A DNA stretch of 50,306 bases from a virus: positions 1 through 50,306 of the IMG/VR virus record IMGVR_UViG_3300008267_000373; one strand, 5' to 3'. Below the pieces are notes generated by a model. It was not told the DNA's origin and made no database searches. It was given only the letters and a program-made list of their open reading frames with translations. The position numbers and the translations under genes are program-made. Below are positions 5,647 to 33,325 of the stretch, one piece after another; within the stretch, counting starts at the first letter, position 1, and every line of letters begins with the position of its first letter.

Positions 5647-6309
5647 TTAATATGTTTTATTTTTCAGCAACGAGAGGAAATTCTTGAACTCACGAGCCTG
5701 TGTCTCATAGAGATTAGAACGTGATGCTTTCTTAATTTCAGTCTCCATTTTTTCAATCACCTGAGGTTGTATAATGCCATTATTCCAGACCCACTCAACA
5801 CCTTCCATAATTCCATTTACAAAAGCTGTTGGTGCTGATGGATCTTGCACGATATCTACCGTGTTGAGAATAAAGTCGTCTTTAACGTACATGACACCAT
5901 TACGTTCCTCAAGACTACCCATACCACGAGTTGACACACCTAGTTGAACGCCACCATCAAGCAAACCTTTTACGATGTTACCCATTGGAGTTTCTAGTAT
6001 GCGTGCCTTACCCACTACGTCGTTCCCTGTCCAATCCAGGGATTCAATTTTGTGGGATACCTTATCCAGGTTAATAGAAGGACCGTCAGGATGGTTTAAT
6101 TCCCCAACAGCTCTACCAGTCTTAACCTGTTGTGTAACATATCTATCTACCGCTGCTTCCATGATTGGTTTAGGATAGATTCGACCGTTACGATTCTTCT
6201 GTTCTGATTGCATGAAGATGCCTTCGATAAAGTGGTTCTTACCACCATTCGCTTTGGCTTCCGTGATAACTTCTAGTCTTTGATCGTTATATTCAGCAAT
6301 CAGCTTCAT
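5647..6309 (-). CDS. 21: gp21 prohead maturation protease
   Basis: 220 residues. ERNGNGRIYP-type substrate-strand motif (NRNGRIYPKPIM), GELNHP with the catalytic His73, and GVSTRGMGS with the catalytic Ser126 define the herpes-assemblin-like serine protease of T4 heads. VDIVQDPSAP (about 151-160) carries the usual acidic residue. It cleaves gp23, gp22 and other head proteins before DNA packaging and then itself. It is one base from the small gene upstream and eleven from gp22 downstream, within one late unit. Confidence 0.95.
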   Translation of the reverse strand: MKLIAEYNDQRLEVITEAKANGGKNHFIEGIFMQSEQKNRNGRIYPKPIMEAAVDRYVTQQVKTGRAVGELNHPDGPSINLDKVSHKIESLDWTGNDVVGKARILETPMGNIVKGLLDGGVQLGVSTRGMGSLEERNGVMYVKDDFILNTVDIVQDPSAPTAFVNGIMEGVEWVWNNGIIQPQVIEKMETEIKKASRSNLYETQAREFKNFLSLLKNKTY

Positions 6310-15778: not shown

Positions 15779-17870
15779 CTAAACCTGATGTTGCGCCATC
15801 TACTGTTATAATAGCATCCAATAGATTGGTAGCAGTGATATTACCTTTTAAGCTGTTAACACTCAGAACGACCCTATCAGAATCAACACTGAAGGTTGTT
15901 CCGCTTAGTTCTATACCGTATCCTGCTTTATAGATTTGTGCAGAAGATATCTGAGAGAACGTAATATTTGTAGTACCAAATACAATAGTTCCTTCGGTGT
16001 TCATCACATATAATTCACCGGCACCAGTAACACCTTCTCTTACATAGAAAGCATCACCTTTACCTAAAGCGTTGGGGCTGCTAGGACCAGCTGAATCGGT
16101 ATCACTGGATCTTGTAAGAACCCAATTTGATGTAGGTGAACCTTTATGAGTAACTACGTATACCCCGTTTTGAGTTTGGGTAGTCTGTTCATATACAAGT
16201 ACTCTATCATCACTATCAACTGATACACCGTCAACAACTAATGCTTCTTGTGTTCCTGCGTTAGTAAGAGTTGCACCTACCCCAGAAACCCCATTATCAT
16301 AGGTAGCATTTAGGTTAATTGGAGATTCAACCCTTACAGGATCGTGATAATGCAAAGCTGCTGATACTAGCGTATCAACGTAAGATTTATTTGCTGCGTC
16401 AGTGCCAACTGTAGGAGTTGCAAGAGAAGTAATCTTAGATGAACTAGCAGATAGACCGTTGAAGGTTGGGGTATCACCTGTTCCTACCGCCTGACCGATA
16501 CTAATAATACCAGTGGTAGAACTATAGGTTACACCGGTTCCAGCGCTTATCGCATGTTTAGCATCACTGTCAGCTCTAGCAGAGGTATAATACTTATTTG
16601 TACCTTCACTTAAATTGGTAGTAGTATATGGGGTCAGTGTAACTTTAGTATAATAAGAACCACCATCTGCTGTACTAATTATAAGATTACCAGTTGAAGA
16701 ATCCCAGGCTGTGCTGGAAACCCCCGCTACGGATACTGTACCAATAGAATCAACTTGACCTTGAGAATTTATAGTTAATATTGGTACAAGTGATGCAGAG
16801 CCATATGTTCCAGCTGCAACACCGGTATTTGCAAGCATAGAAGACGTAACAGTGCCAGAATCACCAGCAAGGATTACAGCATTGCCACCATATGTTAGAC
16901 GACCTGTACCGGAACGACCGAGAGCAGTAATATTGCTATTACCAAATACGATATATCCTTGTGTAGCGTCTTGTACACCGCTGACTCTAAAAGTATTGGA
17001 TTGGTTAAGATCACCAATCCAAGCGTCATCCCCGATTTTGAAGTTCTGACTCGTACCATTACTAGTCGAAATTACCTGGCTCCCAGTAATAACTCCTGCA
17101 GTAAAGTTGCCGCTAGAATCACGAGCTACAATAGCACCGGCAGTGTTTGCACTGGTAGCATTTGATGTTACTGTGAATGTTGAACCGGTGTATTGGTTAG
17201 CTGTGAAAGAGGCACTACCTGATAGACCTGTACCGGATACAGCTAATGTTAAGGTTCCATCACCAGGAGCAGCAGCGCCTAATAGGTTTGTGCCCAGATT
17301 GCTGTCAGCCGTAGTAAGATCGATATATGCGCCGCGGTTTGGTGAACCCTGTTCAAAAAATCTTAATCTATTTTGATAAACATCAATTATAACCCCGGTT
17401 CCAGCTAAAGTTGTATTGGTAACAGGCTTTGCTAATTTTATTTCACCACCTTCATCTCCAGAGGACATGGTAGAAATTAAGTTAGTTCCACTAATATCAC
17501 CAGTCGCAGTAACATTACCACCTGTAATATTACCAGACATAGTAATGTTACCACTACTACCGCTATCGGTAATATTGTGACCATTGAGATTTAAGTTATT
17601 CCCAAGAGCAGGATTAGAATCTTCTAGAAGATTAATAGGACGATTGGCTATTAGATAAGTGCTGTTAATAATGCTCTTAAGATAATCAGAATCTATTAAA
17701 TAAAGAATCTGACCAGAGTCTAAAAAGGACCTAATACTAGTATCATTATGTTTGTAATATAATTTACCGTCTGCATAGTTTATAGCTAATTCCCCGTAGT
17801 CAATATCACTGACTAAAGGAATCTTACCACTTACAGAAGACTTTTTTAACTTAATAGAAGTATTTGACAT
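15693..17870 (-). CDS. Fibre/whisker-like virion protein (725 aa)
   Basis: Begins MSNTSIKLKKSSVSGKIPLV with GELAINYADGKLYYKHND, the N-terminal attachment module of exo-T4 fibres. A long beta-rich, Ser/Thr/Gly part follows, then LATPTVGTDAANKSYVDTLV, a coiled-coil-like module, and ALHYHDPVRVESPINLNATY with NGVYVVT and WVLTRSSDTD, a known phage-fibre domain. It ends at GLDADLLDGQHGSYY, which in relatives precedes the fibre tip. It stands next to gp13, where T4 carries wac (fibritin) and gene 12. The C-terminus (RINVYNSSGTLSACY) runs into gp13 by 86 bases and may be cut short. Receptor binding or whisker function is inferred. Confidence 0.75.
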   Translation of the reverse strand: MSNTSIKLKKSSVSGKIPLVSDIDYGELAINYADGKLYYKHNDTSIRSFLDSGQILYLIDSDYLKSIINSTYLIANRPINLLEDSNPALGNNLNLNGHNITDSGSSGNITMSGNITGGNVTATGDISGTNLISTMSSGDEGGEIKLAKPVTNTTLAGTGVIIDVYQNRLRFFEQGSPNRGAYIDLTTADSNLGTNLLGAAAPGDGTLTLAVSGTGLSGSASFTANQYTGSTFTVTSNATSANTAGAIVARDSSGNFTAGVITGSQVISTSNGTSQNFKIGDDAWIGDLNQSNTFRVSGVQDATQGYIVFGNSNITALGRSGTGRLTYGGNAVILAGDSGTVTSSMLANTGVAAGTYGSASLVPILTINSQGQVDSIGTVSVAGVSSTAWDSSTGNLIISTADGGSYYTKVTLTPYTTTNLSEGTNKYYTSARADSDAKHAISAGTGVTYSSTTGIISIGQAVGTGDTPTFNGLSASSSKITSLATPTVGTDAANKSYVDTLVSAALHYHDPVRVESPINLNATYDNGVSGVGATLTNAGTQEALVVDGVSVDSDDRVLVYEQTTQTQNGVYVVTHKGSPTSNWVLTRSSDTDSAGPSSPNALGKGDAFYVREGVTGAGELYVMNTEGTIVFGTTNITFSQISSAQIYKAGYGIELSGTTFSVDSDRVVLSVNSLKGNITATNLLDAIITVDGATSGLDADLLDGQHGSYYRINVYNSSGTLSACY

Positions 17871-20933: not shown

Positions 20934-21568
20934 TGCTGTTTAGTCTCAATCAGGTTATCATCGTATATAAAATGAACTAGTTTCACCTTACTATTAAATC
21001 TATCATCTATCATTAATGGTAACTTATAATGGTCGTAATATTTATTATGGATGGTATAATCATATCGGTCAGACTCTTCCGTATATATCCCTAGCCATTC
21101 TCCTGGCAATTGAATCCTATTAGGAAAAGAATCTTCTATGAAATTCTGCTCGCCTTTACCAGGCGATCCAACTAAATTCCCATAATAATTCATCCAAAGG
21201 TTTGGGTCTGAATAGAACTTATCTACTACTGAAAATATATTCGGGCCGGGGTTTATTTTATAGAAACCACCGTTAATAGTGCAGCCACTGTTTCTCCACC
21301 ATCTAGGAAATGCTGCAAAGTTATTATTTGGTATATGGTAATCAAATAACTCATCTAAGTTACCGGTAATAACGAAATCGATATCCATTACTATTCTTGG
21401 GTTATCAGTCTCGAAGAATGAAATCTTATCCCAATGTCCATTCGGACAATCTGTCTTTACCAATAAGTTAAAATCGCTAGAATAATTTCTAGCGATTCCA
21501 TTTTCTAAATTCGTAATATATTGGGATGAGTATTTGTTACCGAAATGGGTAACACAGATGTCAAGCAT
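20903..21568 (-). CDS. Glycosyltransferase-like protein, GT-A type, second copy
   Basis: 221 residues. MLDICVTHFGNKYSSQYITNLE resembles the start of the neighbouring 250-residue protein, and PRIVMDIDFVITGNLDELFD places a D-x-D in the same position. INGGFYKINPGPN and GEQNFIEDSF are further pieces typical of GT-A enzymes handling small surface glycans. The mid-region is shorter than in the neighbour. Probably a paralogue that diverged in acceptor choice. It overlaps both neighbours by a few bases. Confidence 0.65.
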   Translation of the reverse strand: MLDICVTHFGNKYSSQYITNLENGIARNYSSDFNLLVKTDCPNGHWDKISFFETDNPRIVMDIDFVITGNLDELFDYHIPNNNFAAFPRWWRNSGCTINGGFYKINPGPNIFSVVDKFYSDPNLWMNYYGNLVGSPGKGEQNFIEDSFPNRIQLPGEWLGIYTEESDRYDYTIHNKYYDHYKLPLMIDDRFNSKVKLVHFIYDDNLIETKQQWIKNLWNTT

Positions 21569-22247
21569 CTCTTCCTAGTTCTTCAATAGCATCTTCCCAG
21601 AATTCTTTATGGGTTAGATCGAAGGTATAGGAAATGGTCATTCTCCAGCAGTCTGTGGAAGCCATATGATATACAAGATCATCTGGGTGGTCGTTGTAGC
21701 TTCCAAAGTAAAATGCTTTGGCTTGCCATCCAGGAACATCTTTTACTAAGACTTCCTCTTTTGTATGAGGATCAATGTGCTTCCAGTATCCATCACCAGT
21801 TTCTGACCAAGTTATGATAATGTTATACGAAGAAGCATTCGCATTATTGTGCCATGCGATATATCCGCCTGGAGGATAAATAGCGCAAAGAGCATTATTC
21901 TTTGTAGCCAATAAAGTCTGAAGTTTTTCATTCAGTGAAACAAACTTTCTATTATACTCTAGAATGTCTTCATTTATATTTCGTCTATTTTCTTTGGCAT
22001 CTTTTAAAATATCTCGAAGATTATATCCTAAAAGGGCTTCTGGATACCCATTATGAGCTATCCCCATGTTCATAATTTTATTCTTATAGTCGTTAGAAAT
22101 ATAGTGTTCTCTGTCATGAGGGAACTTAGGAAGAATCAGAGTTTCTTTCATTTTCTCTATGTCAGGGTACCAAAGGTCTTTAAATTCGTTTAATACTGAT
22201 AATACTTTTTTATCTTTAATCATTACAGATTTCATAATCTCGTTCAT
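21561..22247 (-). CDS. Jelly-roll protein, possible 2OG-oxygenase relative
   Basis: I start this at ATG 22247, one base after the upstream stop (TAATATG); the longer reading to 22388 lies inside the upstream gene. The product has 228 residues. YPPGGYIAWHNNANASSYNI gives an H-x-N in the place of the oxygenase H-x-D, and DDLVYHMASTDCWRMTISYTF supplies a second His and an Arg. WSETGDGYWKHIDP lies between them. This looks like a double-stranded beta-helix fold with degenerate metal ligands. It occurs within the glycosyltransferase set, so it may modify the same target. Activity is uncertain. Confidence 0.55.
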   Translation of the reverse strand: MNEIMKSVMIKDKKVLSVLNEFKDLWYPDIEKMKETLILPKFPHDREHYISNDYKNKIMNMGIAHNGYPEALLGYNLRDILKDAKENRRNINEDILEYNRKFVSLNEKLQTLLATKNNALCAIYPPGGYIAWHNNANASSYNIIITWSETGDGYWKHIDPHTKEEVLVKDVPGWQAKAFYFGSYNDHPDDLVYHMASTDCWRMTISYTFDLTHKEFWEDAIEELGRDA

Positions 22248-22248
22248 A

Positions 22249-23016
22249 TTAATATCCTTTATCAATTTTATCAGACCAGTGGAAGATAATAGAGGGTTTA
22301 TTTTCTGGGTTAATCTTTTCACTAACAGTTTTCGATTTGCCATATACAGAATACCAATTCCACCTATACTCATCGTCGAAAGAACCAATCTTTAAATCTT
22401 TATATTTCGGGTTCTTATCAATCAGCCACCATAAAGTAAACTGATCCCATTTACTTAGGTCTGCAGGATGCAGATCGTAATCAGGCTTATCGTCTTTATA
22501 ATCAGGCCACCATACTTTTGCCTTTGCTGCTCGATAATAGTAATCCCAATCTACCATAAAATCTTTTACGATAGGATTGGCAAAGTTATAAATGAATACC
22601 CCACCGGTGTATTTCATTTTTCCACCTGGCCAAGATCTAATGTTAAAAAACCTATTTGCCTCATCGGGCAGTTTAACCATCACTAGATCATTGTCACCAA
22701 CATAATCAAATGCGGTTTGAATATCCTCATGATTAATATATGCATCAGCATCTATATACATTGTGATATCGAAGGGACTTCTTGACAGTGCCCAAAGTTT
22801 TTCCCTCGAGTCATCACCACAGTGTATTACGTAATCTGCTATTTTTTCTCTTCCGTCACAGAATCTTTCTTCTGTGACGAGACAAGTCTTGGCTTCAGGG
22901 TAATAGTCTTTTAAAGATTCTATTAGATTTAAAGCGTATCTATAGAAAACAACAGTTTTTGACGCTACTATTAAGAATCCTTTACTCGGATTCTTTTGGC
23001 TCTTCCTGCTTTTCAT
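22249..23016 (-). CDS. Glycosyltransferase-like protein, GT-A type, third copy
   Basis: 255 residues. KGFLIVASKTVVFYRYALNL opens the Rossmann-like half, FDITMYIDADAYINHEDI carries the D-x-D metal motif, and GKMKYTGGVFIYNFANP with DQFTLWWLID are the usual acceptor-side features. The first 12 residues are basic and overlap the end of the upstream coiled-coil gene by 35 bases, so the true start could be later. Third member of a glycan gene set placed inside the fibre operon. Confidence 0.68.
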   Translation of the reverse strand: MKSRKSQKNPSKGFLIVASKTVVFYRYALNLIESLKDYYPEAKTCLVTEERFCDGREKIADYVIHCGDDSREKLWALSRSPFDITMYIDADAYINHEDIQTAFDYVGDNDLVMVKLPDEANRFFNIRSWPGGKMKYTGGVFIYNFANPIVKDFMVDWDYYYRAAKAKVWWPDYKDDKPDYDLHPADLSKWDQFTLWWLIDKNPKYKDLKIGSFDDEYRWNWYSVYGKSKTVSEKINPENKPSIIFHWSDKIDKGY

Positions 23017-23455
23017 TATTCAATTCTTCCATTACGATCATCATAGAATAGATATACACTTCAACTTTATTTGCGGCTTTTCTTAATTTCGCTTTTAATT
23101 CTCTATTCTTAGAATTTTTAATTGCCTCAATTTCAAAAGCTTGAATCTTAGTTTCAAACAATTCTTGAAGAGTAGCTACTTTCTCTCTTTCAATTCTTTC
23201 TTGTTCTACAGCTTCACGCTCTTTTAGTTTTCTTTCATTACGAATATTGGTATTCTCAGTGATTTTTTCTTCACCAATAGTAGCCATAATTTCTTCCCAA
23301 TCAGGATTTGAATTTCCTGTATCAGTAAGTTTATTTACTAGTAGTTGTTGTTTAATTACCTTACCGTCATCTTGAGTAATAGTCAATAGAGTAGTAATTC
23401 TATTTTGGTCTAGACCTTCAAAGAAAGAATCTTCTGCCCATTTTCTTTCAGCCAT
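22982..23455 (-). CDS. Coiled-coil protein of the fibre cluster, unknown
   Basis: 157 residues. MAERKWAEDSFFEGLDQNRI and TTLLTITQDDGKVIKQQLLV form a short globular start. Residues about 65-157 are a highly charged helix (NERKLKEREAVEQERIEREK) with heptad character, ending NEKQEEPKESE. Homologues accompany the octapeptide-repeat protein in exo-T4 phages as I remember it, but no function is known to me. The start follows a clear GGAGATAT ribosome site. It could be a chaperone for fibre folding or a structural rod. Confidence 0.65.
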   Translation of the reverse strand: MAERKWAEDSFFEGLDQNRITTLLTITQDDGKVIKQQLLVNKLTDTGNSNPDWEEIMATIGEEKITENTNIRNERKLKEREAVEQERIEREKVATLQELFETKIQAFEIEAIKNSKNRELKAKLRKAANKVEVYIYSMMIVMEELNNEKQEEPKESE

Positions 23456-23474: not shown

Positions 23475-24737
23475 TTAAGCCGCTCTTACGTAAAGAGTAT
23501 ATGTTTCAATTGTTGCGTCAGCTGCATCGATAGTTAGACCAGTGTAGAATCCAGTAAAACTATTCGCATAAGATCCAGTGAATGAACCTGTATAAGATCC
23601 GGTAAAGGAACCAGTATAAAAGCCAGTAAAATTTCTAGTGTATGTTCCGGAAAAGTTTCTTGAATAACTTCCAGTAAAAGATCTAGAATAAAATCCTGTG
23701 TAAGTTACAGGAACGAATCTACTAAAGTTTGCTGAAGTGGGATTATTAAAGGATGGGCCCCCATAAAATGCGGTAAAAGTTTGCTGAACAGCTCTTGTAT
23801 ATCCCCCGGCAAATGAACCAGTATAGCTTCCAGTAAAACTATTTGAGTAAGAACCAACAAAGGAACCGGTATAAAATCCAGTAAAATCTCTAGTATAAGA
23901 TCCTGTAAAGTTTCTAGAATAACTTCCAGTAAAGGAGTTCGCGTACGATCCAGCGTAAGCGACATTGGTAGTAGTATCTTTCGTATCAGTCGCAGTACCT
24001 ACTGCTCTCCAAGTTCCTGCAGCTACTGGAGCGCCTTGTGCAGAAGAACGTAATTGGTAAGCGCCGATGAAATCAGCAGAATTCATAATTCTGGTTTTAG
24101 CACGCTGACCGTAGGTCACTTGCATCTCGGTCGTGTTCATTTCTTTTAGACCATCGAATGCAGTGGTATCGTTCAGGATCTTAACAGTCTTTACCTCTGT
24201 GGGTGCAGTCATAGTCTGACGCTGATAGATGTTGTACGTAGCAGCGGTGACACCTGAAGACTGTGTATCAGTAAACACTGAAGATAAATGAATATCCCAA
24301 TCTGCTCCGGGTGATGTAGATGCTAGTTTATATACACCAGGGTAATCATTCGTAAAAATTGTACTCAGTAATCTATCAACAACTTCATTTAATTCAGTGT
24401 TATCAGCTTCTTCCATATTACCAGAACCAGCCCAAAATACTGGTCTGTGGAAATCTACACTTGCCTCTGATGCGGTTCCCGTATTCTGATAAAGTGTAGT
24501 AGTAGTGGAACCAGAAGTAATATTTGTACCATCATGTGTACCAACAGCTTCATTAAAAAACGTATTGGTATAAGAACCGATACTAGTTCCACCTGCAGAT
24601 GTAGTAAGTGCACCTACATCAGAGGACGACATAGCGGCAAGTTGTAGACCTGCAAGATACGCAAGATAATTTTCTTCAGTCGTGGTTATCTCTTTCAGAT
24701 CGCCAGCTGTTCCATTAAGTTTTAATGGTGCTACCAT
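23475..24737 (-). CDS. Octapeptide-repeat virion protein (420 aa)
   Basis: Residues 1-260 form a normal-looking domain (start MVAPLKLNGTAGDLKEITTT) with RTVLGQ-like pieces absent but a Thr/Ser-rich beta pattern. Residues 261-316 are seven consecutive octapeptides and 346-401 seven more, with consensus (F/Y)-(T/S/V/A)-G-(S/F/T)-Y-(T/S/A)-(R/G/N)-(N/S/D). A 29-residue spacer (AVQQTFTAFYGGPSF...) separates them. The C-terminal 19 residues (TIDAADATIETYTLYVRAA) may pack the end. Such aromatic-Gly repeats suit a beta-solenoid or prism. Related repeats occur in cyano-type T4-like virion proteins. Adhesin or shaft is inferred. Confidence 0.75.
   Translation of the reverse strand: MVAPLKLNGTAGDLKEITTTEENYLAYLAGLQLAAMSSSDVGALTTSAGGTSIGSYTNTFFNEAVGTHDGTNITSGSTTTTLYQNTGTASEASVDFHRPVFWAGSGNMEEADNTELNEVVDRLLSTIFTNDYPGVYKLASTSPGADWDIHLSSVFTDTQSSGVTAATYNIYQRQTMTAPTEVKTVKILNDTTAFDGLKEMNTTEMQVTYGQRAKTRIMNSADFIGAYQLRSSAQGAPVAAGTWRAVGTATDTKDTTTNVAYAGSYANSFTGSYSRNFTGSYTRDFTGFYTGSFVGSYSNSFTGSYTGSFAGGYTRAVQQTFTAFYGGPSFNNPTSANFSRFVPVTYTGFYSRSFTGSYSRNFSGTYTRNFTGFYTGSFTGSYTGSFTGSYANSFTGFYTGLTIDAADATIETYTLYVRAA
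23535..23702 (-). repeat. Octapeptide array 2 (7 units of 24 bases)
   Basis: Seven further units, residues 346-401: YTGFYSRS, FTGSYSRN, FSGTYTRN, FTGFYTGS, FTGSYTGS, FTGSYANS, FTGFYTGL. The same count as in array 1 after a 29-residue spacer suggests either a duplicated block or a fold that needs seven rungs. Confidence 0.9.
23790..23957 (-). repeat. Octapeptide array 1 (7 units of 24 bases)
   Basis: Seven in-frame 24-base units inside the virion protein at 23475-24737, residues 261-316. Units read YAGSYANS, FTGSYSRN, FTGSYTRD, FTGFYTGS, FVGSYSNS, FTGSYTGS, FAGGYTRA. The protein period is exact while DNA identity is partial. Confidence 0.9.
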
Positions 24738-26738: not shown

Positions 26739-29700
26739 TCATAACAGACTCTTCCCAACTTGATCTTTTATTTCTTCAATAAGTGCATCGTCAGTGGTGT
26801 AAACAAATCCTGGATTATTCTTGAAGAAATTAACGATGACACCATCACCGTTATGGTCAGCAAATTCTATACCATTCGCAAAGATGCGTCTGTCAGTTGT
26901 ATCTATAGTATACAATCCATAAACATTATCGATCTTGGTAGCAAGTTTGCTTTCTTCAACCATAATTGTCTTACCATCTTCGATAACATAGTGTGTGCCA
27001 GATACACGGACACCCATATAATTATATAGTGGTGCACCATCATAAAGATGGATTGCTGTAACCATTCCACCGCGTGTCATGTCACCAAGAAGCATATGAC
27101 TGATTTGCTTTGTAGTTCCATCTGCCATCTCGATTAGGGTATCAGCAGTAAAGCATCCGGTTCCTCCACCAGTTGATCCACTACCTGATGCACCAACGCC
27201 GGTTCCTCCAGTTGCACTACCACTGACACCAATACCGCCGCCTTTGCTAGGACCGCTATTACCACCACCAACAGCGCCGAGGCCACCACCTTTTGTATCA
27301 CCGAAACATTGGCCTGGACCAGTTGAAGTATTGCCGCCGCCAGGTTTATCAGGACCGCCTCCACCACCGCCGTTACCGCCACCAGTTGTTACCTTCGGTA
27401 TAGTTTCTGTTTTAGTAGTAATTGCAACATCAATATTATATTTTCTAGTGCTCTTTACTGTTTCTTGATAATGGCGTAGAGTTCCGCGAGTAGTGAATAC
27501 CCCATAGGTATATGAGGTAGCATTAGCCAGATTCAATACGCTAATATCTACTAGATAAAATTTAGTATCACCTGTTAAGAATTTCAAAGTATTTGTAGAA
27601 GGAATTAGGAATATGCCTTCAATCTCACCACTTGCGTTACTATAAATTTCTGCAGTGGGACCACCTAAATTTTGAGGGAATTGAGTAGCATTTTTATAGA
27701 TATTACCTGCATCAAGATATGGTGAATTTTTAGTTAAAGAGCCAAAGAATGCGAATTTACCGGCGCCGGTTTGAACCCAGTTTGCGACACTTACGTTGTC
27801 ATAGAATGGGAAATATCTAGTATTCGGTCTTAATCCTGAAGCTTTAAAGAATACGAATTTGTTTCTTTGATACTGAATAGAGGTTTCGTACAACTTTTCG
27901 TCTTTTACTGATGTTGTAACAATCGATGATGAACCTGCTGTAGATGTTGCAGTAGTTGTGGTTTTAATATTTCCGGCTGTGCTGGTCGTAGTTTTAGTTT
28001 CTGAGTAACCAGCATCTAACTGATTTTCTTTAACCCCGGACCAGTTGAAACCCCAACTACCCCACAAAGCATCTTTAGTCGGATCTAAGTTGAATCCACC
28101 GTCAATAACTTTTGCAGGAAGACGCACATCATCGAACCACACGTCCGATGAAGGTGACATTTTAATTTTGCCGGTAACAACACCTAAATTAAAAGCATTA
28201 ACTGGTTCAGCACCAGTATTCGGGGCACCAGAAGGTCCTGAAGTAGCTTCAGTATTTGAAACCTCTACGACTTCAGTAAAGGTTGGATATACTGTATCAC
28301 CTATAAGGATCGTATCTACTGAATTTGCTGAATCGTATAGGAGTTCGATATTTCTACTAACATGAGGTGGTCTAAGTTCACCAGAGAACATGTCAATGGC
28401 AGCGTTATATTCATAAGCAGCTCTTGCAGACTGAGAATGATCCTTAAAGTTATCAGCAGTTAAGCCAATCTTTAATCTATTATTACCATTTGAGTCGAAG
28501 ACATCTATTAGGGAAGTTTCAAGCTCAAGCATATTTAAGGTTGTTAGTTCTTCAAGTCTATCAATTCTCTTTTCTAGAGAACCAATATCACTCATAGTAT
28601 ATCTTCTATTATTGACATACTGTAATGCTACGTCATCCTGATTAAGTACATATGGATTAACTTTTAGTTTATAAAGCTCCATATTATTTTCTGGTAACGT
28701 TGGGAATTGTGGGAATAAAGCATCATCACCAGGGATAGCTCTAAAGCCACCATCGTTACCAAGAGCAATTCTATAATATTTTCCACGATAATAACTAACA
28801 TCGGCATTTATCAAATCAGTGTTAACAGGAATCTCCATACGGACTGCGCCTGTACCGGTGAAGTTTGCACCGGTATTATCTTTTCTAGATCTAAAATCGA
28901 GAACATCTCTTAACTGTACGATTTGGGCATTTTTCTGTCTAAAGGTAGGAATATCTTCGTAGTTAACTTGACCAGTATATGAGTTAACTGCAAAGAAATC
29001 TCCATTAGCACCATGTTCGAAATAATCAAAATCTACATATACGTTTCCAGCAGGCGCACTATATCCAGATTTTAGGTACAGTTTAGAAACATCATAGAAG
29101 TTATCTTTTTGACCATTGTCAAAGATATACTGATTGGTAATAATATTTCCAGTTGCGGAACCATCCCTGATCTCATTAATTCTATATCCATCAGCTTTCG
29201 CTAAACTGATAGTATTATCCACAGCAGGAGTGAATGTAGTTGCAACATTTGTTAAGGTTTTAGTCTTAACAGTTGATGCACTTTTATTCACAATAGCAAT
29301 CATTGTGATAGCAGAACTAGTTGGGAGTGATCCAAGCGTTACAGAGGTAGATCCGTTTCCGCCTGAAGTTATATTAATATTTTGAGACACCCCGCTACTA
29401 TCTAAAGTAGCAATCCAACTTGAGGAATTCGCAAATGTTTCACCTGTAGCAGATAGGTTAAACTGAATTGTTCCAGATACAGTTGTAGTACCGGTAAATC
29501 TACGTTGAGTTGCAAGTGAAATATCAGATAATGCAGAGGGTCTGGTATATCTTAAGTCAAATAGTAAATTATTATTTGTCGTATCTTTGATAACCGCAAC
29601 GCCATTTTCCAGAACCAGATCTACATAATTAGTTGTACTAGTACCAATACTTCTTACTGCGCTAAAGTTATTCGAACCTGACATTGTTACATCAAAGAGA

Positions 29701-30959
29701 TACACTCTATAATAAGAACCGAATTCTTCAACAGATCTTATTCTAGCTGTACCAATAGTAGAACCACCATAAGTGATAGCTGATCTTAAGTTTACAGTAG
29801 CCAAAGTGTTGATCTGTGGTAAGCCTCTTAGAGTACTACAGATAACATAGTTACCATAATTTGCTGCAATAACATCATTATTAACAGTTTCAGTTGTTCT
29901 AGGTTTATCAATCACAATACGGATTGAACTTTCTAATTCTGCATAATGGCCTTCAACATAAGCAGATCCTGCAGAAATTTGAATGTCAAGTTTAGTATTG
30001 TCGGAATCATTTTCTAAAGTTTTAACCAAGAACGGTTTAACTGTATAGCTACCAGATTCATCAGCAGTCCTTTTCTCCATGATTTTCATAATCACGTTAA
30101 GGCTATTAGGACCTGGTGCAGCTGTAGAAACTAATGCACCCTTTACGATAGAGTATGCTTTTAAGAATGTTGTATCTGAATCAACGTTGTTTTCAAGTTC
30201 CAGAGTCAATCTAATTCTGTAACGATCAGCACCGGGTGCTGTCAGGTTAGGCGTATCGGTAGAATTGTCATATAATTTACTATTATCCGAAGAAGTTACG
30301 ACATCTTCAGTTACTACAAATCCAGCGTTTACAGTTGGTTCATTCGAATATTTTGAAAGGATAATAGACTGGGAATCGGTTGTAACAAAATGGCCTAATA
30401 CGAAGAAGGTGCTACTTTTTACTGATAATCTACTACCTCTACCTACAGCAGGGTTTACTGTGGTATTAGTTGTTTGCACCTGGAGGTTTGCACCTGATAT
30501 TAAACCGTTAAGGATTTCACCAGGGATTAAACGTGTAGGGGTATCAGTACCGTCTATCTGATTGTTATTGATATATTCAACGTATATGGTAGCGGGATCT
30601 AAACCTACAGCTGGAACCACTTCCGCTATACGAACATTAATAGTCGATGTTAAACCTACAAAGGTTTCTCCAACTAGAGATGTATACGATGTCGGAAGTG
30701 AATATGAAGTAGTATTCAGTTTTACGAATTCGTATTTATTATCAAGTTGTACACCGCCAGATTGAACAGAAGCACCATCGTTAAATACGAATCTAGCATG
30801 ACGTTCAGCTTCTTTTTGAATAATAGTCTGTAGCTGAGTTAATTCTCTTGCTTGAAGCGCACGACCATTATTGAAAAGAATTCTATGATAGTGATCACTA
30901 TCGGCAAAATCGTCTCTATAGGTTTGGCTGAAGGTTGTGCTAGTAACGTTGCTTACCAT
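26739..30959 (-). CDS. DUF4815-type virion protein with C-terminal Hint domain
   Basis: 1406 residues. The N-terminus FSQTYRDDFADSDHYHRILF with NGRALQARELTQLQTIIQKE is the DUF4815 signature of exo-T4 virion proteins. A very long beta-rich body follows. Near 780-830 NNRRYTMSDIGSLEKRIDRL and EELTTLNMLELE form a coiled-coil linker. Around 1195-1268 is a Gly-rich stretch. Residues 1269-1370 are a Hint (hedgehog/intein) domain: Cys1269 in GCFTADTLIEMADG, VSGTHYV as block B, and IFANGIEFADHN as the end. The position between fibres and gp8 suggests a large baseplate-peripheral or fibre-base protein. Autoprocessing is inferred and unproven. Confidence 0.8.
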   Translation of the reverse strand: MVSNVTSTTFSQTYRDDFADSDHYHRILFNNGRALQARELTQLQTIIQKEAERHARFVFNDGASVQSGGVQLDNKYEFVKLNTTSYSLPTSYTSLVGETFVGLTSTINVRIAEVVPAVGLDPATIYVEYINNNQIDGTDTPTRLIPGEILNGLISGANLQVQTTNTTVNPAVGRGSRLSVKSSTFFVLGHFVTTDSQSIILSKYSNEPTVNAGFVVTEDVVTSSDNSKLYDNSTDTPNLTAPGADRYRIRLTLELENNVDSDTTFLKAYSIVKGALVSTAAPGPNSLNVIMKIMEKRTADESGSYTVKPFLVKTLENDSDNTKLDIQISAGSAYVEGHYAELESSIRIVIDKPRTTETVNNDVIAANYGNYVICSTLRGLPQINTLATVNLRSAITYGGSTIGTARIRSVEEFGSYYRVYLFDVTMSGSNNFSAVRSIGTSTTNYVDLVLENGVAVIKDTTNNNLLFDLRYTRPSALSDISLATQRRFTGTTTVSGTIQFNLSATGETFANSSSWIATLDSSGVSQNINITSGGNGSTSVTLGSLPTSSAITMIAIVNKSASTVKTKTLTNVATTFTPAVDNTISLAKADGYRINEIRDGSATGNIITNQYIFDNGQKDNFYDVSKLYLKSGYSAPAGNVYVDFDYFEHGANGDFFAVNSYTGQVNYEDIPTFRQKNAQIVQLRDVLDFRSRKDNTGANFTGTGAVRMEIPVNTDLINADVSYYRGKYYRIALGNDGGFRAIPGDDALFPQFPTLPENNMELYKLKVNPYVLNQDDVALQYVNNRRYTMSDIGSLEKRIDRLEELTTLNMLELETSLIDVFDSNGNNRLKIGLTADNFKDHSQSARAAYEYNAAIDMFSGELRPPHVSRNIELLYDSANSVDTILIGDTVYPTFTEVVEVSNTEATSGPSGAPNTGAEPVNAFNLGVVTGKIKMSPSSDVWFDDVRLPAKVIDGGFNLDPTKDALWGSWGFNWSGVKENQLDAGYSETKTTTSTAGNIKTTTTATSTAGSSSIVTTSVKDEKLYETSIQYQRNKFVFFKASGLRPNTRYFPFYDNVSVANWVQTGAGKFAFFGSLTKNSPYLDAGNIYKNATQFPQNLGGPTAEIYSNASGEIEGIFLIPSTNTLKFLTGDTKFYLVDISVLNLANATSYTYGVFTTRGTLRHYQETVKSTRKYNIDVAITTKTETIPKVTTGGGNGGGGGGPDKPGGGNTSTGPGQCFGDTKGGGLGAVGGGNSGPSKGGGIGVSGSATGGTGVGASGSGSTGGGTGCFTADTLIEMADGTTKQISHMLLGDMTRGGMVTAIHLYDGAPLYNYMGVRVSGTHYVIEDGKTIMVEESKLATKIDNVYGLYTIDTTDRRIFANGIEFADHNGDGVIVNFFKNNPGFVYTTDDALIEEIKDQVGKSLL
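26850..27155 (-). other. Hint (intein-like) domain coding segment
   Basis: Encodes residues 1269-1370 of the 1406-residue protein. Cys at position 1, TH in block B and a terminal HN are in place, but the +1 residue is Gly (HNG), so splicing is not expected. N-terminal cleavage or C-terminal Asn cyclisation remains possible. The domain is short for a Hint (about 102 residues). Confidence 0.7.
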
Positions 30960-32338: not shown

Positions 32339-33325
32339 TTAAGCTATCGTAGCGCCGTAATGTCCGGTGATATACCATTTAGTACCATCCCAAATTACCG
32401 TAGCAGCATCGTTCTGATCCAATGCAAAAGTAGTTCCTTGCGCAAAAGATGCAGGTGTTACGGTCGCTATACCAGCACCCATGTTTGTAAATATTTTAGA
32501 TTCACCAACTACTGTTCCATTAGCTAATGAAATTGCAAGAGCTGAACCACTGTTACAGATTATATATGAAGCCGAAGTTGATGCTGCACCAGCCGAGGTA
32601 ATTGTTGAAGAAGTATATGCTACCTTACCAATCTCAACAGAACCAGTACCTTTACCAGCTAATTGTAAAGTGATATTGGTATCGTCACCGGTTGCCGTAA
32701 TAGAAGGTTTATTACCGGTGATAGCATTTGTAATATTCACATCATTTACTGCAGACGAGGTTGCGGTAATTCGAATGGACTCCGCACCGTTTACATCATT
32801 AATTGCTGTAGTAACTCTTGGTGTAGTTAATATTGGTGAAGTAAGAGTTTTATTTGTTAATGTAGATACATGGCTATTAAAAGTTAACGTATCACTATCT
32901 GTTAAAAGAGGAAGTCTAATATTTCTATTCGCTACTAACTCTGCGGGAACTATAATATAACGATGAGTTGATGAGGTATCATTAATCTGTGGACCAGTCA
33001 ATATAGGCGAAGTAAGAGTTTTATTCGTTAACGTTTGACTTGCTGAATCAAGTAGAAGTGTTCCACTATGATTTGGAATATAAACAGTTCTATCAGCTGT
33101 AGGGTTAACTGGAATAAGGGTTGTCTCAAAACTGTCTGCGGTAGAACCTTCGAAAATAATGGATCCAGCGGTAAAGGCAACCCCGGTGGAAAGTGAGTTG
33201 CTATCACCGCCAAGCTTTATATAAAGCTCCACAAAATTTTCGTTAATTTTTTCACCAGCAGAGCGAAGCGTATCCCCCGTTCCATCATTGGCTGTAGTAC
33301 CGATGCCAATATTTTGCCTAGTCAT
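32339..33325 (-). CDS. gp10-like N-terminal domain fused to fibre repeats
   Basis: 328 residues. MTRQNIGIGTTANDGTGDTL, then RSAGEKINENFVELYIKLG, is the N-terminal motif of T4 gp10 (NINIGNVVDDGTGDYLR...KINENFDEL), which docks baseplate fibres. Two copies of TLTNKTLTSPILT (about 97-110 and 153-167) and beta-rich repeats such as GKGTGSVEIGKVAYTSS follow, as in short tail fibres of cyano-type phages. The domain replaces the T4 9-10-11 region. Its own late promoter is 34 bases upstream. Confidence 0.78.
   Translation of the reverse strand: MTRQNIGIGTTANDGTGDTLRSAGEKINENFVELYIKLGGDSNSLSTGVAFTAGSIIFEGSTADSFETTLIPVNPTADRTVYIPNHSGTLLLDSASQTLTNKTLTSPILTGPQINDTSSTHRYIIVPAELVANRNIRLPLLTDSDTLTFNSHVSTLTNKTLTSPILTTPRVTTAINDVNGAESIRITATSSAVNDVNITNAITGNKPSITATGDDTNITLQLAGKGTGSVEIGKVAYTSSTITSAGAASTSASYIICNSGSALAISLANGTVVGESKIFTNMGAGIATVTPASFAQGTTFALDQNDAATVIWDGTKWYITGHYGATIA

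Follow-up and report, generated by a model that had tools for sequence, protein, structure and literature searches.

The virus record IMGVR_UViG_3300008267_000373 of IMG/VR, analysed here over its whole length of 50,306 bases (the window), carries genes for a T4-like major capsid protein (gp23), portal (gp20), sheath, terminase and baseplate. One of its genes (23475..24737, minus strand) encodes a 420-residue protein with two equal blocks of aromatic/glycine repeats, and we consider it probable that this is the stalk-and-tip protein of a T4-like phage fibre, most likely a host-recognition tail fibre, with antiparallel arms that zip onto one another. In the proposed model (i) three modules, formed by residues 1-255 plus the last 19 residues, would make a base that holds the stalk, (ii) in the third module the loop between two antiparallel strands would have grown into a giant hairpin, (iii) arm 1 would go outward as [FY]xGx tetrads and turn at a short aromatic/glycine tip, from which arm 2 would return alongside, and (iv) facing tetrads would be matched along the arms such that the chain zips onto itself. 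Owing to this matching and self-zipping, the arms would have to stay about equal in length. Differences in length and tip between phages would set the reach and contact surface of the virion toward the host. The parts of the protein are as follows.

23475..24737, minus strand: array protein, putative fibre stalk protein, 420 residues (open reading frame, ORF; homologues in IMG/VR and Phage C48C1)
23973..24737, minus strand: N-terminal base, residues 1-255, three modules of strand-strand-helix-strand-hairpin type (AlphaFold, DSSP, alignment conservation)
23790..23957, minus strand: arm 1, residues 261-316, seven octads or 14 tetrads (repeat count; mirror register with arm 2)
23703..23789, minus strand: tip, residues 317-345, a 29-residue spacer (repeat gap; centre of the array at 0.503)
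23535..23702, minus strand: arm 2, residues 346-401, seven octads (repeat count)
23478..23534, minus strand: C-terminal strand, residues 402-420, TIDAADATIETYTLYVRAA (conserved end in complete relatives; AlphaFold strand 388-418)

All 14 octads of the window protein match [FY]xGxY, giving 7+7 units of [FY]xGxYxxx, and the longest in-phase octad run is seven, against a maximum of two in 20,000 residue shuffles of the protein. The smaller repeat unit is a tetrad, [FY]xGx, in which F alternates with Y. The initial annotation of this DNA had described two arrays of seven octapeptides with a 29-residue spacer in a virion protein; the arrays and their coordinates agree with our count, and we retain the virion assignment as probable. 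At the DNA level the array contains only short 24-base tandem pieces. When the arms were compared unit by unit, their DNA identity gave a permutation p of 0.096 in direct order and 0.41 in mirror order; units 2 and 4 are nearly identical between the arms (23/24 and 22/24 bases). As the identity is not above permutation in either order, the window alone gives no clear block duplication between the arms.

Relatives were collected from IMG/VR, the best 80 of 193 relatives in one profile scan being taken and further scans adding loci (a lower bound). The 155 complete ORFs (109 including that of the window, plus 46 more, near-identical ones kept) are anchored on both sides of the array, by the end of module 3 and by the conserved C-terminal strand; ORFs cut by a contig end or lacking either anchor were dropped. 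Comparisons among family members share proteins, and related sequences are not independent. Of 83 representatives (N-domain 4-mer Jaccard ≤0.5), 67 had a scorable break, defined as an interior repeat gap of ≥5 residues; in 52 of these it fell between 0.45 and 0.55 along the array (median 0.507 for the 67). Among the 64 ORFs that have a single break, it was centred in 61. The periodicity-gap method used here gave for the window an arm 1 of 58 residues, a break of 32 and an arm 2 of 54, with the break at 0.503. Tip finding went through three versions, and the periodicity-gap patterns, the final one, were fixed after the results of the other two. Those two were dropped: the longest aromatic-tetrad gap produced false tips in RTST-type repeats, and composition scored insert units such as AKT as non-repeat and found only 20/83 tips centred. 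The tip region reaches about 100-170 residues in larger relatives; that of the window contains FTAFYGG, which MAFFT places against FFGG, YYGG or YYAG of relatives.

Arm length varies widely across the family, from about 25 residues to many hundreds. When related one-break ORFs differed in length, both arms had changed equally in 118 of 169 comparisons and to within 4 residues in 130, the commonest equal change being 22 residues. This is a selected set, made after an unselected comparison that included multi-gap ORFs, in which 124/358 changes were exactly equal and 138/358 within 4 residues. The equal count is neither chance nor a fixed number, and the sequences suggest, as the most plausible reading, that it reflects two arms pairing in mirror register.

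The register was scored in 71 arrays of 100-600 residues (5-mer Jaccard ≤0.35) with partners permuted inside each protein; if p denotes a position in the first arm and q one in the second, a mirror register is a constant p+q and a direct register a constant q-p. Aromatic identity (F facing F, Y facing Y) gave a single positive peak, at p+q=N+7 (436/496 observed, 323.4 expected, z 12.5), and fell below expectation at the neighbouring sums N+3 (z -6.7) and N+11 (z -5.0). In direct register the maximum over 36 scored offsets was z 3.4. At residue 2, which follows the aromatic residue, complementarity of T with non-T peaked only at p+q=N-1 (483/771, 370.9 expected, z 9.6), and its direct-register maximum was z 1.0. 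Mutual information calculated letter by letter at residue 2 returned the same main peak (z 14.7) with lesser ones at N-5, N+3 and N+17 (z 3.4-4.2). In 264 phase-by-sum tests on 83 arrays of 80-700 residues, the eight strongest (z 8-25) all fell within i+j=N+1 to N+7, and the next reached z 5.1.

Another signal comes from the third position of the tetrad, usually glycine. At N+5 a non-glycine third position faced F 165 times and Y 127 times, versus 243 and 938 times for glycine (odds 5.0, p 1e-31). Six other sums gave odds of 0.36-1.61, the lowest at N+9 and in the opposite sense (p 3e-9), and the best direct offset gave 3.6 on small counts. In the window protein 11/11 scored aromatic pairs are equal at N+7 and 8/8 scored non-glycine third positions of the arms face F at N+5; R315 at the tip was left unscored, and the same sum would put it opposite Y346. 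Judged by these sequences, the arms covary in mirror (antiparallel) and not in direct register, and this tetrad-level register would be easier to reconcile with a pair of extended antiparallel arms than with separate solenoids.

These results bear on the causes that the initial annotation had offered for the equal counts, and support it in part. Its general proposals, that a structural cause underlies them, that aromatic and glycine residues pack, and that the arrays change length and could set reach, hold up; counting units in relatives did not reveal random numbers without symmetry (118/169 equal, or 124/358 in the wider, noisier set). A fixed rung number is not supported, given the range of arm lengths, nor is a duplicated block, as covariation in relatives is mirror and not direct. 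On its β-solenoid with F/Y ladders the two AlphaFold models speak neither way, since both give the array pLDDT (predicted local distance difference test) values below 50. Block duplication was rejected on the DNA test in the window (p 0.096, direct order) together with the direct-register scans in relatives, none of which exceeded z 3.4.

A second pairing signal comes from six-residue insert units, Y-x-G-abc-Y, which many relatives carry and which face each other when measured from the array ends. In a first set of 61 distinct type strings, 204/244 arm-1 inserts had a mirror partner (circular-shift null 90, maximum 123 in 1000), and in 188/194 classified pairs a K/P type stood opposite a T type or SR opposite SR (permutation null 99, maximum 125 in 2000; 10 unclassed). 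The insert classes were made after seeing this set, and the rule was then written down before the test loci were fetched. In the held-out test of 37 new type strings, 200/226 arm-1 inserts were mirror-matched (null 88, maximum 116) and 178/183 classified pairs were complementary (2000-permutation null 84, maximum 104; 17 unclassed); the held-out proteins are relatives of the first set, some type strings being one residue apart, and hence are new sequences and not an independent family. Class-free mutual information supports the pairing for insert letters one and two, and not three. Among proteins of the first set with equal counts, antiparallel complementarity held for 114/115 pairs versus 83/115 for direct same-class matching, and the insert order in L165, L166, L134 and L169 matches mirror complementarity and not direct identity. 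Between aligned relatives both insert sides differed in 81 comparisons and a single side in 2. When complementary pair types were mapped by parsimony onto an N-domain tree with 111 tips, 54 changes from one such type to another were counted; since position alone was used to match layers, this is an upper figure. Most T-K and K-T pairs lie at offset 4 (97/112 and 117/124) and most SR-SR pairs at offset 0 (95/130), a register step tied to pair type.

The aromatic and glycine periodicity, together with the nearly identical DNA of units 2 and 4, would also suit two β-solenoids, one per block, with F/Y ladders and packed together, the equal number arising from fixed rungs or block duplication. Solenoids packed antiparallel could even yield part of the mirror signal. 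We regard this arrangement as very unlikely, as arm lengths vary, direct-register covariation is absent or weak, the insert order in the four relatives just named is mirror-complementary, and the window gives no significant sign of block duplication. Lower still, at the edge of what seems credible, stands the view of the arrays as disordered Tyr/Gly-rich low-complexity brushes, resembling FG repeats and having no defined register. Their low-complexity composition and AlphaFold confidence (predicted local distance difference test, pLDDT) below 50 speak for it; register-specific covariation of residues and insert units and the coupled length changes speak against it. Sequence statistics show covariation and symmetry (the repeat itself, nearly equal arms, the central break, the mirror register and the mirror-paired inserts), from which the two zipped arms, probably extended β chains, are inferred.

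AlphaFold, run on the window protein with 16 aligned sequences, places the array on a defined base. Residues 1-250 are predicted with confidence (pLDDT block means 73-97) as three modules, each of strands, a helix and a hairpin, and this N-terminal base is conserved in the alignment of relatives. Strands 243-271 and 388-418 flank the array, which in the predicted base is shown to lie in the loop of the third-module hairpin; the C-terminal strand is predicted to be the second strand of that hairpin, which the array interrupts. An extended strand spans 3.3 Å per residue. If the arms are extended strands, the stalk would measure at most about 20 nm in the window and about 93 nm in L013, whose arms have about 283 residues (both upper bounds).

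The fibre is probably an oligomer, and the mirror pairing could then run between chains, arm 1 of one chain meeting arm 2 of its neighbour. Covariation would look alike whether the partners belong to one chain or to two identical ones. The sums at which residue classes peak also differ (N+1 to N+7), possibly reflecting two neighbours, and phage fibres are usually trimers. Both array ends lie at one hairpin of the AlphaFold base, however, so that the arms of one chain would start side by side. Pairing within the chain is therefore what we favour, and the exchange between chains we hold to be rather unlikely, though the strongest of the competing arrangements.

Several observations weigh against a self-zipping fibre of this kind. 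In the AlphaFold model residues 263-396 have pLDDT <50 and form no confident hairpin, and the model of a minimal relative of 330 residues, L208, with arms of about 25 residues, is poor throughout (pLDDT 56). Foldseek searches of PDB and BFVD returned nothing at E ≤0.001, which is not proof of a new fold, and the best VIA-align hit (Z 3.2) fell on the unreliable array part and gave no useful row. In the window the registers N-1 (11/13) and N+15 (9/10) fit almost as well as the family register because F/Y alternation is strict there; by our own estimate the window register is one weak fact, to be expected about 1 time in 8 by chance. The window's residue-2 positions lack clear complementarity, and its protein has no insert units of the kind covered by the rule, which is itself broken by 6/194 pairs of the first set and 5/183 of the held-out set. 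The break is off-centre in 15/67 representatives, and 16/83 have no scorable break. Arms differed by >4 residues in 39/169 one-break comparisons, 38 of which involve L281_626, L006_6444 or L166_4495, and in the unselected set arm-length changes were uncorrelated (r -0.09); our own reading is that large or multiple breaks were mistaken there for tips. Very long or RTST-rich arrays, such as that of C48C1 (3364 residues), hold several non-repeat blocks and not one simple hairpin. The fibre role and host binding, lastly, are argued from the gene neighbourhood alone. The neighbouring genes in the window are as follows.

22982..23455, minus strand: small conserved protein, 157 residues, next downstream of the array gene (present in most loci)
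22249..23016, minus strand: glycosyltransferase-like protein (invariant D89 and D91; weak Pfam matches in relatives)
21561..22388, minus strand: 2-oxoglutarate-oxygenase-like hydroxylase (invariant H144, H205 and R213 in the alignment)
26739..30959, minus strand: large upstream protein (phrog_358, DUF4815; family matches)

Neighbours were scored in the 107 loci that had ≥2.3 kb downstream of the array gene, and the cassette proved conserved: in 100/107 the small protein, the glycosyltransferase-like gene and the hydroxylase-like gene were all downstream, within 1.5, 2.5 and 3.5 kb, respectively. Taken singly, the small protein was matched ≤1.5 kb downstream in 101/107 loci, the glycosyltransferase-like gene was found in 101/107 and the hydroxylase-like gene in 103/107. 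The small protein has only scattered weak PHROG matches, and its homologue in Phage C48C1 (CDS0202) is annotated 'hypothetical protein'; by its position it is a candidate assembly factor. Pfam GT2 was weakly matched by 3/16 and GT8 by 1/16 aligned glycosyltransferase-like proteins, and by the window's own not at all. The hydroxylase-like ORF probably starts near 22247, judged by homologues. Its protein found no convincing match in Pfam, and its label follows from the invariant H144, H205 and R213, which we take to indicate a 2-oxoglutarate oxygenase. Searches of Pfam, PHROG and PDB with the neighbour proteins gave nothing firm.

The T4-like baseplate genes lie further upstream than the phrog_358 protein. 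The C-terminus of that protein (26739-27100; GCFTADTLIEMADGTTKQI...) resembles a Hint/intein-type autoprocessing domain; Pfam recognized only DUF4815 in the protein, with its best stretch outside this C-terminus. Short tandem repeats occur within neighbouring ORFs of the window, a 33-base repeat at 17492-17554 and a 15-base repeat at 32802-32844.

This setting bears on where in the virion the protein sits. As expected of a T4-like tail fibre, the array gene has T4-like baseplate and tail genes as neighbours. The nearest named neighbours are baseplate proteins and the location is read from genes alone, which would also suit a baseplate decoration, neck whisker or capsid fibre. A comparison with pelagimyophages, another T4-like group, speaks against this: passages of PMC7029224 place their host-recognition cluster between VrlC and gp14, where tail fibres are encoded together with numerous glycosyltransferases, most commonly of the GT8 family, and list an aspartyl/asparaginyl β-hydroxylase among the proteins core to all pelagimyophages. 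By this analogy, tail fibres, glycosyltransferases and β-hydroxylase beside structural genes would point to a tail fibre, and long arms with a variable tip would suit host contact. We therefore judge a decoration, whisker or capsid fibre unlikely and a tail fibre, the tip of which may bind the host, the better assignment.

In those passages (PMC7029224) the pelagimyophage glycosyltransferases are read as acting on host lipopolysaccharide. As the glycosyltransferase-like and hydroxylase-like genes stand directly behind the array gene, their arrangement suggests a second possibility, that their products modify the fibre. A fuller proposal, to which we give an even chance, is a peptide 'pair code' (K/P-T, SR-SR, F-F, R/N/Q-F) in which units specify their partners so that a fibre of nearly any length zips, the arms change in step and the neighbouring enzymes modify the fibre. 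If that code is true, arms lengthening and shortening in step would be the protein counterpart of RNA stem covariation.

The family is frequent in uncultured viral contigs, yet Phage C48C1 was its sole match among 50,697 phage records, in a tblastn search with a low-complexity filter, from which records near the window may be missing. When the N-domains of two distant relatives were searched against these records, one had no match and the other matched Phage C48C1 only. The C48C1 protein, CDS0201 (OQ984149, Kyanoviridae; L001:11983-22026), has 3364 residues, is annotated hypothetical and combines many array blocks with several non-repeat domains; its N-domain is 46% identical to that of the window protein, and the same gene order follows. 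Two or more complete array ORFs occur as tandem paralogues in 26/128 loci, L006, L013 and L093 among them. The translation of the L057 ORF starting at 5971 terminates in CLLYTSPSPRDVEE, which we take to be sequencing-adapter read-through, so that this contig end may be an artefact.

The window array protein had no match in Pfam, PHROG or PDB; 0/16 family members matched any PHROG entry at E 0.01, tail-fibre families included, and a PDB search with the family profile found no match. Eight large tips had no match in Pfam and nothing firm in PHROG, and the one tip tried against PDB had no match. A scan of bacterial and archaeal genomes, which detects close relatives only, confirmed 0/18 pattern-matching stretches. 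Literature searches of open-licence PubMed Central (PMC) papers listed none that, judged by titles and passages, deals with this repeat family or describes such a fibre build.

If the model is true, it describes a virus fibre with a stalk built from two arms in mirror match, the length of which changes in evolution by whole, paired steps. The model supplies a testable rule, read from sequence alone, that links sequence to fibre architecture. The coupled length change of two distant arms is an evolutionary question that could be tested directly on these genes, and a simple repeat with distinct pair types is suggested for protein fibre design.

Among known systems, the trimeric long tail fibre of T4 type is likewise a long thin appendage; its shaft is repetitive and ends in a distal tip, and its genes lie near those of the baseplate. 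There the C-terminal part forms the tip, whereas in the array protein the C-terminal strand would be part of the base, with the tip in the middle of the chain. β-Solenoids and FG nucleoporins share the regular aromatic and glycine spacing, but neither predicts mirror-register pairing of two distant arrays. A closer likeness is to the streptococcal antigen I/II adhesins SpaP and SspB, which, as far as passages of PMC7726212 describe them, build a stalk from the parts of the chain on either side of a central adhesin domain and display that domain at the far tip. The array protein would also have a mid-chain tip with flanking stalk segments. As in such a hairpin stalk, its segments appear to associate antiparallel, as mirror covariation and held-out pairing suggest, and they are equal in length (52/67 and 61/64 centred), equal length as a feature being our own reading. 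The array protein differs in that its two arms are made of identical [FY]xGx tetrads that follow a pairing rule, and in having no sequence relation to these adhesins in Pfam or PDB. Hence, so far as those passages allow the analogy, it appears to work like antigen I/II adhesins by architecture and not as a member of their family.
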